From assembly GCF_041228105.1 (NCBI RefSeq), contig NZ_CP166097.1, positions 4,154,001 through 4,218,000 of the forward strand: a stretch of DNA of 64,000 nucleotides. The letters are read 5' to 3'. The stretch is from Pectobacterium aroidearum (GTDB taxonomy: Bacteria; Pseudomonadota; Gammaproteobacteria; Enterobacterales; Enterobacteriaceae). Shown piece by piece: positions 3,020 to 6,263 of this stretch; position 1 is the first letter of the stretch; the number at the start of each line of letters is the position of its first letter. Under the pieces are notes generated by a model. It searched no databases, was not told where the DNA came from, and worked only from the letters and a program-made list of their open reading frames with translations. The position numbers were made by a program, and so were the translations under genes.

Positions 3020-4738
3020 ATGACGCGATATTTGGAAATTATCAGAGGCGGTAAAGGCTGGGGCGGGCCGCTGCTCGTTAATGTCACACCAGGGAAAAAA
3101 ATTGCTTACATCACCGGAGGGATTCGTCCCACCGTGGTAGACCGGCTGGCGGAGCTCACCGGTTGGGAAGCCGTGGATGTCTTCAAACATGGAGAACCCG
3201 CAGAACAGGAGATCGGTTTAGTGGTCATCGACTGCGGCGGCACGCTGCGCTGCGGTCTGTATCCGAAACGGGGGATCCCGACGATCAATCTTCACCCGAC
3301 CGCGAAAACCGGCCCGCTGGCGGAATACATTCGGGAAGAGATCTACGTTTCCGATGTTACGCCTGCGGGTATTCGGCTGCGGACGGAAGGGAAGCAAGGA
3401 GACAAACTGGGCATTGTGGCTGACGACCTCACGGGCGCGACCACGATCGGCGTTCTGCTGGCACGCAGCGGCATGAAAACTGCCGCTTTTTTTAACACCG
3501 CCTCGTTCAGCGATTGTGAGTCAGACTGGCAAGCGATGGTGATCAGCAGCGATAGCCGCCCCCTGCCCAAAGCCGAAGCGAAAAACCGGGTGAGAAATGC
3601 AACCCAGGCGCTGCTGGAGCGCGGCGCGGTGTATTTCACCAAGCGGGTTGATACCACGTTGCGCGGTGGGATTGGCTACGAAATTGATGCCATGCTGGAG
3701 GTCTTGCCGCAGGAAACCATCGCGGTGGTGGTGCCAGCCATGCCACAGTCGCGCCGTATTGTGGTGGGCGGTTACTCGGTGATTGACTCCGTCGCCCTCT
3801 CCTGCACCGATGTCGCGAAAGACGTTCGTACACCAGTGACGGAAACCTTTGTTCCCGGGTTGCTTAGCGAGCAAACGCATCATCAGGTGAAACATATTCC
3901 CCTGTCTTGCGTGTTAAAAGGCTATCACGCCATCAGCGATGCGCTGGTTCAGCAGCAACGGGAAGGCGCGCGTGTCATAGTCGTGGATGCCATTTCACTG
4001 GCCGATGTGGAAAATATTGCTCGCGCGGTCACCAAGCTGAACTGGAATGTACTGGCCGTCGACCCCGGTCCCTTTACCGAGCGTCTGGCCTTTACCCGTG
4101 AAATGATCCGCGATGAGGAACGTAAAGAGAAGGCACTCATCCCGCAGGAACAACAGCAGGGTTCTATTATCGTCGTCGCAGGCAGCGCAACGCCGGTCAC
4201 CAAGAAGCAGCTTACGACACTCATTGAAACCGACCCACGCGTTTGCCACATTCCCATTGATGCCGAACTTCTGATTGATAAAGAGCACTCGGCGGATATA
4301 GAAGTGGCGAGGGTCGTCAGGCAGGCACTGGAGTGTGTGAAAACCCACGCCAACGCCATCTTCGTCTTTGAATCTGCATTAACGGGCCGTCTGCTCGATC
4401 TCAGCGTGGAAGAACAGCGTTTTGGATTGGCGCACGGTCAGGCAGCGGAAAATATCAATCAGGGGTTGGGAAATATCGTCAAAACGGTGCTCGATGCCGC
4501 CGCTTCAGAAATTAAAGGGCTGTACATGACGGGTGGAGACACCATGGTCAACGTGCTCAAACAGCTCGGTGCTAACGGTATTGAAATGGTGGATTACGTT
4601 ATTCCTCAAACCGATCTGGTCAAGATTATTGGCGGTGACTATGAGGGGTTAATTTGTGTCGGAAAAGGCGGATTAACCGGACCTGAAGATATTATCCACA
4701 CCATTATTCATCATATTCACCGGGAAACGCTGCAATAA
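3020..4738 (+). CDS. Fusion protein: glucitol-type PTS EIIB domain + DUF1537 four-carbon acid-sugar kinase
   Basis: 572-aa single open frame with two clear parts. Residues 1 to about 125 match the EIIB domain of the glucitol/sorbitol PTS (SrlE N terminus): GGKGWGGPLLVNVTPGKKIA, then VVIDCGGTLRCGLYPKRG with Cys72 and Cys78, and a domain end near EEIYVSDV. Residues from about 128 start a normal DUF1537 kinase (GIVADDLTGATTIGVLLARS), with VDTTLRGG, YMTGGDT and a C-terminal VGKGGLTGPEDI nucleotide region. DUF1537 kinases are usually about 420 aa and lack the extra domain. They phosphorylate D-threonate, D-erythronate or related acids at C4, giving the PdxA2 substrate. The phosphocysteine region is intact, so the EIIB part looks able to accept phosphate from the EIIA encoded at 5892. 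Its purpose without an EIIC is unknown. Confidence 0.9.
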   Translation: MTRYLEIIRGGKGWGGPLLVNVTPGKKIAYITGGIRPTVVDRLAELTGWEAVDVFKHGEPAEQEIGLVVIDCGGTLRCGLYPKRGIPTINLHPTAKTGPLAEYIREEIYVSDVTPAGIRLRTEGKQGDKLGIVADDLTGATTIGVLLARSGMKTAAFFNTASFSDCESDWQAMVISSDSRPLPKAEAKNRVRNATQALLERGAVYFTKRVDTTLRGGIGYEIDAMLEVLPQETIAVVVPAMPQSRRIVVGGYSVIDSVALSCTDVAKDVRTPVTETFVPGLLSEQTHHQVKHIPLSCVLKGYHAISDALVQQQREGARVIVVDAISLADVENIARAVTKLNWNVLAVDPGPFTERLAFTREMIRDEERKEKALIPQEQQQGSIIVVAGSATPVTKKQLTTLIETDPRVCHIPIDAELLIDKEHSADIEVARVVRQALECVKTHANAIFVFESALTGRLLDLSVEEQRFGLAHGQAAENINQGLGNIVKTVLDAAASEIKGLYMTGGDTMVNVLKQLGANGIEMVDYVIPQTDLVKIIGGDYEGLICVGKGGLTGPEDIIHTIIHHIHRETLQ

Positions 4739-4854
4739 ATAAAAACAGTAGCAACGATATAAAAAGAAAATCGATATAAACAATAAATCCGACGTATTGC
4801 ATAGGTCTGATTAACAGGCCTGGATGTTGCTCTACCCTACAAGAGAGAAACACC

Positions 4855-5880
4855 ATGAGAAATATAAATATTCTTGAAAAGATGAATAAAGTCCCTGGCG
4901 GGCTGATCATTATCCCACTGCTGGCGGCGATACTGATGAATACCTTTACGCCATCGCTATTGCAAATCGGCGGCCCCACAACGGCGCTATTTAAAGCAGG
5001 ATCCAGCGCCATGATGGGAATATTCCTTCTCATCTGCGGATCTTCCATTAATATTCGTCAGGCCGGATTACCTTTATATAAAGGCACCGTGCTGCTCATG
5101 CTGAAATTCTGTGCGGGCGCACTGGCGGTATGGCTAATGGGGACTTTCTTTGGCCCCGCCGGTTTCTTTGGAATTTCAACGCTGGCGTTTATTGCCTGTA
5201 TCACCAGTTCAAACAGCTCGCTGTATATTGCGCTGTGTAGCAACTACGGCGATGCCAGCGATGCGGGCGCAATTTCCGTGTTCTGTATTAAAGACGGCCC
5301 TTTCGTCACGATGGTGGTTCTCGGCGTCAGCGGTTTAGCCAATATCCCGTTTGCGGCCCTGCTTTCTATGCTCATCCCGCTACTCATCGGCATGCTGTGG
5401 GGCAACCTTGACGAGAAATTCAAACAGCTTTGTGCCGCGTCACAGCCGCTGGTCATTATTATCATGTCCTTCGCTATCGGCGCGAATTCCAGCATGCACA
5501 CCGTCTTTACTGCGGGTTTATCCGGCATTGTTCTGGGCATCATTTCCGCCATAACCGGACTGGTTTTCTACTTCCTGTACAACTTATTCCTGAAACGAAA
5601 AACGGCGCTGGGTGCTGCGCTGGGTACCACCGCTGCCAGCTCAGCCCTCACGCCGGCCATGGTGGCGCAGGCTGACCCCAGCCTTCAGGTTTTTGTTGAT
5701 TCCGCCACGGCGCAATTAGCAACGGCCAGCATTATTACCATGCTCACCGCCCCCGTGCTCGTTGCCTGGTTTGATAATCGATTGAGGAAAAAAGGCGTCA
5801 TTCCGTCGGGCGACGAAAATAACGCCTCACCGGCCGAAAAGACACCATCACTGAATACACACGCTGGTAAACCCAAATAA
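4855..5880 (+). CDS. KdgT-family (2-keto-3-deoxygluconate permease-like) transporter
   Basis: 341-aa inner-membrane protein with many hydrophobic segments. The start MNKVPGGLIIIPLLAAILMN and the later NSSLYIALCSNYGDASDAGA and GAALGTTAASSALTP blocks match KdgT, the proton-linked 2-keto-3-deoxygluconate permease (about 327 aa in E. coli). In this operon, between the acid-sugar kinase and EIIA, it more likely imports a four-carbon acid than KDG. No KdgR box is seen upstream, which argues against a pectin-regulon role. The C-terminal tail after about residue 315 is polar and not conserved. A GAGAG ribosome site precedes the ATG. Confidence 0.82.
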   Translation: MRNINILEKMNKVPGGLIIIPLLAAILMNTFTPSLLQIGGPTTALFKAGSSAMMGIFLLICGSSINIRQAGLPLYKGTVLLMLKFCAGALAVWLMGTFFGPAGFFGISTLAFIACITSSNSSLYIALCSNYGDASDAGAISVFCIKDGPFVTMVVLGVSGLANIPFAALLSMLIPLLIGMLWGNLDEKFKQLCAASQPLVIIIMSFAIGANSSMHTVFTAGLSGIVLGIISAITGLVFYFLYNLFLKRKTALGAALGTTAASSALTPAMVAQADPSLQVFVDSATAQLATASIITMLTAPVLVAWFDNRLRKKGVIPSGDENNASPAEKTPSLNTHAGKPK

Positions 5881-5891
5881 GGTCAGAAAAA

Positions 5892-6263
5892 ATGAGACGG
5901 ATTATCTGGCAGGCCATAATCAGTTCGGTGGGAGACAATGCGGCATTATTTCTGGCAGAGAAACGTCTTATTCTTTTCAGTGATAATGCGCCTAAAGACA
6001 TCAAGGAATATTGCCTCACCCATCATGATGGAACATTAATTCAACCGCTTTCCATTCAGCAGAAAATGGAATTATTTGGCATCACCTATTCGATCAGCGC
6101 CATAGGGGATATCGCCAGCCAAAACCTGAAAGAACTCGGCCATATCACGCTGTTATTTGATGGCGCAGAAAAAGCGGAACTACCCGGCACCCTTCACCTG
6201 ATAGGGCCAGTACCTACGGCCTTATCAGCACAGGGAAATATAACGATTTTCGAAGAGTCATAA
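5892..6263 (+). CDS. Glucitol/sorbitol-type PTS EIIA protein
   Basis: 123-aa cytoplasmic protein matching SrlB (GutB), the glucitol PTS EIIA. EYCLTHHDGTL (residues 39-49) aligns with the active-site region of SrlB, placing the phosphohistidine at His44 with His45 beside it. Later blocks NLKELGHITLLFDG and LPGTLHLIGPVP are also shared. It starts 11 bp after the permease stop, so it is in the same operon. No EIIC gene is present here; the only EIIB is the domain fused to the kinase. It is probably phosphorylated by HPr and passes phosphate to that EIIB domain. A purely regulatory role is possible. Confidence 0.88.
   Translation: MRRIIWQAIISSVGDNAALFLAEKRLILFSDNAPKDIKEYCLTHHDGTLIQPLSIQQKMELFGITYSISAIGDIASQNLKELGHITLLFDGAEKAELPGTLHLIGPVPTALSAQGNITIFEES

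Follow-up and report, generated by a model that had tools for sequence, protein, structure and literature searches.

A glucitol-class EIIB domain fused to a DUF1537 kinase in Pectobacterium aroidearum: a possible phosphotransferase relay controlling a sugar-acid kinase

Why should a bacterium without the membrane subunit EIIC of the glucitol phosphotransferase system (PTS) encode the EIIB of that system as the N-terminal domain of a soluble kinase, next to a matching stand-alone EIIA? The question is raised by a stretch of 64,000 nucleotides (hereafter, the window) from the 5.28 Mb single-contig genome of Pectobacterium aroidearum (RefSeq assembly GCF_041228105.1, contig NZ_CP166097.1, positions 4,154,001 to 4,218,000), in which an earlier note, made from the DNA letters alone, had described a glucitol-type EIIB, EIIB(Gut), joined to a DUF1537 acid-sugar kinase, an EIIA(Gut) gene, and a KdgT-type permease as the only transporter between them. 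The same note proposed that a phosphorelay from HPr through EIIA to EIIB may gate the kinase or the permease, or serve as phosphate donor. The present analysis suggests that in this soft-rot-type bacterium the relay serves to control, or possibly to feed, the enzyme rather than to import a sugar. The elements on which the argument rests are the following.

3020..4738, plus strand: fused EIIB(Gut)-DUF1537 kinase gene, 572 amino acids, a single frame with three Pfam domains above cut-off (AlphaFold mean predicted local distance difference test score, pLDDT, 88.6)
3020..3394, plus strand: EIIB(Gut) domain, residues 1-125 (PF03612, EIIBC-GUT_N, over residues 6-125, 164 bits against a cut-off of 22.8)
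3380..3406, plus strand: linker, about residues 121-129 (pLDDT 67 for block 121-130, the lowest block of the AlphaFold model)
3407..4735, plus strand: DUF1537 kinase part (SBD_N, residues 130-355, 198 bits, cut-off 25; NBD_C, residues 384-558, 103 bits, cut-off 28.3)
5892..6263, plus strand: stand-alone EIIA(Gut) with His44 (6021-6023) and His84 (6141-6143) (PF03829, PTSIIA_gutA, 101 bits, cut-off 25; alignment and tree)

The fusion gene runs through 572 codons with no internal stop, and both cysteines of its EIIB domain are intact (Cys72, codon 3233-3235; Cys78, codon 3251-3253), so that the uninterrupted architecture described in the earlier note is borne out by the reading frame and by the domain matches. 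Across SrlE residues 3-112, the fused EIIB is 68% identical to Escherichia coli SrlE; it stops short of the membrane half of that protein, and the corresponding domain, PF07663 (EIIBC-GUT_C), was not found in the fusion protein by the Pfam scan. Fold searches with the model of the fusion protein yielded lists filled by the kinase part, and the fold assignment of the EIIB is a sequence match to 9x2m. Given this level of identity to SrlE and the recurrence of the architecture across genera, the fusion is not a chance juxtaposition. The loop CGGTLRCG is identical in all 21 fused rows of the alignment, which represent 19 different sequences (rows L049, L051 and L065 were left out of the column comparison), and the same loop occurs in most transport EIIBs. 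Cys72, present in 21/21 fused rows, is a conserved cysteine of the phosphorylatable type on a non-transport protein, a feature shared with the regulatory EIIB of MtlR. Pairwise ratios of nonsynonymous to synonymous substitution rates (dN/dS) are 0.035-0.055 for EIIB, and by this measure both PTS parts, EIIB and EIIA, are under purifying selection. After the fusions, the nearest relatives of the fused EIIB are the transport EIIBs of the glucitol class; among the 120 listed of 509 relatives, the carriers of this EIIB are DUF1537 fusions (some of them shortened), SrlE-type proteins and one Dickeya record. That record, from Dickeya fangzhongdai (P0241), combines EIIB, part of SBD_N and the C-terminal end of a transketolase, as if the middle of the operon had been deleted. 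Public entries label the fusion protein either as sugar kinase or as subunit of a PTS transporter.

The EIIA at 5892-6263, likewise as described in the earlier note, has its His44 aligned with His43 of E. coli SrlB; we take His44 to be the phosphorylated residue. The scores against narrower models are under their cut-offs (121 bits against 165 for NF007696, 104 against 190 for TIGR00849). The second histidine, His84, is kept in 38/38 aligned EIIA rows, and a solved member of the class, 2f9h, has Gln in place of His44 and retains the second His. In the EIIA tree, the locus EIIAs (18 rows) split from the rest (20 rows) with support of 100/99.

A dedicated EIIC could in principle be encoded elsewhere in the genome, which by the terms of the earlier note would refute its reading; none was found. 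The whole-genome profile search returned one match for PF03612 (EIIB), one for PF03829 (EIIA) and none for PF03608 (EIIC), with the E. coli positive control detected in every search, and the absence of an EIIC partner noted at the locus thus extends to the genome; PF07663 was not searched genome-wide, but there is no second EIIBC-GUT_N protein in the genome. The comparison was extended to 24 genome handles, or 23 distinct genomes once G354 and G761, which are identical, are counted as one: 22 with the fusion and one, G412, without; in the 22, the fusion gene has frame breaks in G762 and G413 and an in-frame stop in G491. The latter copy (L048:9047-10789) contains one TAA in frame within the fusion gene and possibly is decaying. 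All 22 distinct fusion genomes encode EIIA, and EIIC is absent in 13 of them and present in nine. The EIIA of each EIIC-less fusion genome is located in the fusion locus, and six of the EIIC-bearing ones have a locus EIIA in addition to the sorbitol one. Three loci, from Tolumonas, Zophobihabitans and Gilliamella, have no EIIA gene, and in each of these genomes a complete sorbitol-type PTS is encoded elsewhere. Zophobihabitans entericus (L051) also has a second, divergent glucitol-like PTS with the EIIB loop CGGTARIG, in which the second Cys is missing.

A survey of 392 genomes of the family identified the fusion in 13 (G413 and G491, with the lesions given above, among them), whereas G412 alone has a closely related kinase that is unfused; EIIA is found in 102 genomes and EIIC above cut-off in 94, plus G433 below cut-off. 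The EIIA count exceeds the EIIC count in 13/13 fusion genomes versus 0/379 others (Fisher p 1.5e-24, with shared ancestry ignored), a comparison from which G433 was excluded. Up to eight candidates per genome were scored for EIIC and up to three for the fusion (<=8 and <=3); in the fusion genomes all candidates were scored, with the same EIIC counts. The search across genomes proposed in the earlier note accordingly found an excess of EIIA over EIIC in the fusion genomes and in no others of the family sample.

Fusions of this kind are found repeatedly in enterobacteria, in Orbaceae and in Tolumonas, and the closest named match to the window is Pectobacterium sp. PL152 (99%). A scan of named genomes gave 18 loci, 11 fused, six unfused and one (L013) cut at the contig end; a sample of the order (394 genomes) contained any PF03612 match in 51 and the fusion, judged by frame length, in 2; and a sample of the class (312 genomes) yielded no further fusion genome. 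In the EIIB tree, the fused EIIBs (21 rows) are separated from the SrlE proteins (20 rows) by a branch with support of 90/86, and the trees suggest that the EIIB-kinase fusion probably arose once. The kinase tree omits L048, because of its in-frame stop, and L049, which duplicates the genome of L011; L049 is left out of the EIIB tree as well; L012, L013 and L020 to L035 are outside all trees owing to frame breaks, cut contigs or duplication of longer loci; and L005 and L046, which are one genome, were both retained. Two Clostridiales loci encompass PdxA, the kinase and KdgT at 37-50% identity, and four Actinomycetota loci encompass the kinase and PdxA; tblastn detected neither EIIB nor EIIA in these locus stretches, one of which is only 3.9 kb. 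These distant unfused loci without EIIB and EIIA suggest that the PTS parts joined an older pairing of kinase and permease. Unfused kinases nearer than those of Clostridiales and Actinomycetota come from Bacillaceae.

The most informative unfused case is G412, which, together with the near-identical P0070, is nested in the fused clade of the midpoint-rooted kinase tree. The first 12 residues encoded by its kinase gene (L037:9663-11087) agree at 8-9 positions with the beginning of the EIIB in three relatives, and the gene then continues in frame into the kinase; judged by these sequences, it is a secondary in-frame deletion of nearly all of the EIIB, with an N-terminal remnant left. The genome search detected no EIIA, EIIB or EIIC of the glucitol class in G412; the presence and the loss of EIIA and EIIB go together. 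The kinase keeps its motifs, with 5/144 otherwise invariant positions altered, and the locus retains pdxA, KdgT and transaldolase and is devoid of RpiB, the triosephosphate isomerase (TIM) family gene and SorC. Because orphan EIIAs in the family sample are found only with the fusion, the active-site loop is unchanged and the EIIB-less G412 has no EIIA, the proposed relay from EIIA to EIIB without a dedicated EIIC gains support. With respect to the targets proposed in the earlier note, gating of the kinase is favored and gating of the permease appears less likely.

The enzyme and its substrate have to be considered in the context of the rest of the operon, which, with the adjoining divergent genes, comprises the following.

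1982..2986, plus strand: PdxA-type 4-phospho-hydroxyacid dehydrogenase, the gene that opens the operon (PF04166; NF002992, 592 bits, cut-off 470)
4855..5880, plus strand: KdgT-family secondary permease (PF03812, 368 bits; equivalog TIGR00793, 161.4 against a cut-off of 453.8, hence below)
6362..6820, plus strand: RpiB-family isomerase (PF02502; best NCBIfam model the general RpiB NF004051, 188 bits, cut-off 135)
6982..7932, plus strand: transaldolase-family gene (PF00923, 325 bits)
7936..9942, plus strand: transketolase-family gene (PF00456, 560 bits)
942..1754, minus strand: TIM-family gene, divergent (PF00121)
3..908, minus strand: SorC/DeoR-type sugar-binding regulator, gene running past the window edge (PF04198, 257 bits)
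1866..1881, plus strand: candidate CRP-like site, 116 bases before pdxA (consensus match only, 9/10 positions)

The gene order is pdxA, fusion, KdgT, EIIA, RpiB, transaldolase, transketolase, with the TIM-family gene and the SorC-type regulator divergent, and KdgT is the sole gene between fusion and EIIA, as had been noted. The DUF1537 kinase is below the equivalog cut-offs for D-threonate kinase (NF047819, 204.9/450) and 3-oxo-tetronate kinase (157/350), and the permease falls below its own, so that the substrate is not assignable from the models. The RpiB-family protein scores 169 bits with the D-erythrulose-4-phosphate isomerase model and 136 bits with the rpiB equivalog, both below cut-off. 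Examination of the neighbors (open reading frames of seven loci, 20 flanking proteins from six) gave no firm substrate clue. The combination of RpiB, transaldolase and transketolase is a hint that the product may enter as erythrose 4-phosphate, derived for instance from a five-carbon acid, with tetronates equally likely. In Actinobaculum massiliense (L018:11355-14474), the kinase/PdxA pair is accompanied by TIM and RpiB family genes and by a gene of the dihydroxyacetone kinase family, an arrangement reminiscent of erythrulose pathways. The nucleotide-site motifs of the fused kinases are intact (the comparison left out rows L046, L048 and L049); their loss, which would favor a donor role for EIIB, was looked for and not observed. 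A DUF1537 member is reported to phosphorylate 4-hydroxy-L-threonine as well (PMC10971088).

A CRP-like match of 9/10 is located upstream of pdxA in 13/16 loci, in 11 of these at 104-124 bases before the gene, and the sites of L005, L039 and L049 score 6, 7 and 8. Shuffled upstream regions reach 9/10 in about 1-2%; the 16 regions were hand-chosen, and 3 of the 13 matching ones come from one genus. Adjoining the operon (10208-14646) is an ordinary bgl-type cluster, with a beta-glucoside-type PTS (EIIBCA), a family 1 glycosidase and a PRD/CAT antiterminator.

How, then, might the two PTS parts act in such an operon? The best reading, in our view an evenly balanced proposition, is that a relay HPr-EIIA-EIIB(Cys) reports PTS status to the kinase; it draws on comparative sequence evidence. 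Under this scenario, the operon would break down a small sugar acid, which KdgT would import, the DUF1537 kinase would phosphorylate with ATP, and the PdxA-type enzyme would then oxidize and decarboxylate after phosphorylation. The EIIB would be a sensor grafted to the N-terminus of the kinase: phosphorylated HPr would phosphorylate EIIA, EIIA would hand the phosphate to Cys72, and the phosphorylation state of EIIB would alter kinase activity, following phosphoenolpyruvate (PEP) and the flux of PTS sugars. Phosphotransfer and control of the kinase are what we infer from the conserved parts, and the direction is a guess, namely that phospho-EIIB, when no preferred sugar is used, permits activity and dephospho-EIIB restrains it. 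In lineages in which the EIIA is shared with the sorbitol system, the uptake of sorbitol would be a competitor for phosphate. There is precedent for this scheme in the inhibition of glycerol kinase by EIIA(Glc) (PMC10305011) and in the regulation of MtlR by an EIIB(Gat)-like domain (PMC3217849).

Alternatively, the target might be the permease, with EIIA, or EIIB docked on KdgT, gating uptake by PTS status and the fusion mainly bringing the kinase to the permease. KdgT adjoins EIIA in the EIIA-bearing loci, and inhibition of permeases by dephospho-EIIA(Glc) is described (PMC10305011). Nevertheless, the EIIB is located on the kinase, none of the 120 KdgT relatives listed, out of 258, is a KdgT-EIIA fusion, and G412 keeps KdgT without either PTS part; furthermore, Zophobihabitans keeps the fusion with no KdgT in the locus, the only KdgT found in that genome being about 300 kb away. 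We consider control of the permease unlikely, and gating of the kinase is favored on these sequence comparisons because the domain sits on the kinase, the distant unfused operons hold the kinase and KdgT without PTS parts, and the Zophobihabitans fusion is found without a KdgT in its locus.

Slightly less likely still is a role of phospho-Cys72 as phosphate donor that feeds the kinase, either through the recharging of ADP bound at the nucleotide site (the way DhaM serves DhaL) or through direct transfer. The DhaKLM relay drives a soluble kinase by converting ADP to ATP (PMC6643234), and because that system works in this manner, intact nucleotide motifs are compatible with a donor role; the relay parts, too, are conserved. 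Against this stand the identical nucleotide-site motifs of unfused relatives, the ATP dependence described for DUF1537 kinases (PMC10971088), and the retention of the kinase in G412 without any relay part of the glucitol class. The most specific version, in which recharging of kinase-bound ADP would allow one polypeptide and one EIIA to act as an acid-sugar kinase driven by PEP and so to save free ATP, seems if anything less probable.

Could the EIIB instead be a relic or passive module that stabilizes or dimerizes the kinase, its phosphorylation no longer relevant? The tolerated loss of EIIB in G412 and the altered EIIA of Pantoea sp. A4 point in this direction, but the low dN/dS of the EIIB, the Cys loop unchanged in every fused row and the strict pairing with EIIA make such an explanation improbable. 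Group translocation, with EIIA/EIIB and KdgT or another membrane protein forming an unusual PTS permease, has in its favor that transport EIIBs are the nearest relatives after the fusions, and is scarcely credible in the face of a genome with no EIIC of the class, a fusion missing the EIIBC-GUT_C half, a kinase already in place, and distant loci that pair KdgT and kinase without PTS parts.

Several observations weigh against the relay-controlled kinase. The co-occurrence figure is inflated by shared ancestry and depends for the most part on a single gain of the fusion and a single gain of EIIA. The three-of-three pairing of EIIA-less loci with a sorbitol PTS is weak, PF03612 matches being common in family f27, which includes Gilliamella. 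As G412 demonstrates, the kinase can persist without EIIB, and the loss of EIIA in that genome may be part of a wider contraction of the locus; this account is countered by L005, L010 and L041, which keep EIIA although TIM and RpiB are missing. Two further unfused kinases also nest in the fused clade: P0069, whose neighbor in the tree is a fused row from Klebsiella, and P0073, which has a long branch. The EIIA evolves fast (dN/dS 0.05-0.16), and the locus EIIA of Pantoea sp. A4 (L010:10814-11167) has a long branch and Ile where SrlB has His43, with the Cys of the fusion EIIB intact. Finally, the unphosphorylated EIIB-like domain stimulates MtlR (PMC3217849), opposite to the direction guessed here. 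With regard to the permease, the KdgT gene of Tolumonas osonensis (L008:9802-10805) is seemingly split across two frames, through either sequencing error or decay.

The closest known systems each share part of the arrangement. The glucitol/sorbitol PTS (SrlA, SrlE, SrlB) has the same EIIB and EIIA domain families, with Cys loop and conserved His kept, whereas here EIIC and the EIIBC-GUT_C half are absent and the EIIB forms part of a soluble kinase. The DUF1537 kinases DtnK (D-threonate kinase) and OtnK (3-oxo-tetronate kinase) are alike in SBD_N and NBD_C, the PdxA-type partner and the fold, and differ in that the present protein has an extra EIIB domain and scores below their equivalog cut-offs. 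In the dihydroxyacetone kinase DhaKLM, too, a PTS relay is coupled to a soluble kinase instead of a transporter (PMC6643234), but DhaM is a separate, multiply phosphorylated donor, whereas the EIIB(Cys) described here is carried by a kinase that has a nucleotide site itself. MtlR, which is not a transport protein either, reads the PTS state through an EIIB(Gat)-like domain (PMC3217849); it is a transcription factor, whereas the present EIIB belongs to the glucitol class and sits on a metabolic enzyme. The control of a catabolic kinase by PTS state proposed here is similar to that of glycerol kinase by EIIA(Glc) (PMC10305011), except that a separate EIIA acts there, and here a covalently joined EIIB would act together with an EIIA of its own. 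No description of the fusion was found in the open-access literature, as judged by the titles and abstract openings of the papers listed and with the main DUF1537 paper outside that coverage, and the excerpts of PMC4921024, PMC6643234, PMC10305011, PMC6148471, PMC3217849, PMC8809351, PMC10783003, PMC12928451, PMC11255904 and PMC10971088 do not mention it. As far as could be seen, then, the fusion is undescribed rather than unseen, the architecture being visible in public domain annotation.

In the literature excerpts, known PTS control acts through separate target-binding regulators or through PTS domains on transcription factors; here, it is a metabolic kinase that carries the relay domain. 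Enteric bacteria of several genera have such a kinase, with its own PTS relay domain and a dedicated EIIA. Should the relay set the activity of the kinase, this pair of genes would provide a simple two-gene handle on PTS control, and it would explain the orphan glucitol EIIA genes in genomes without a glucitol EIIC.

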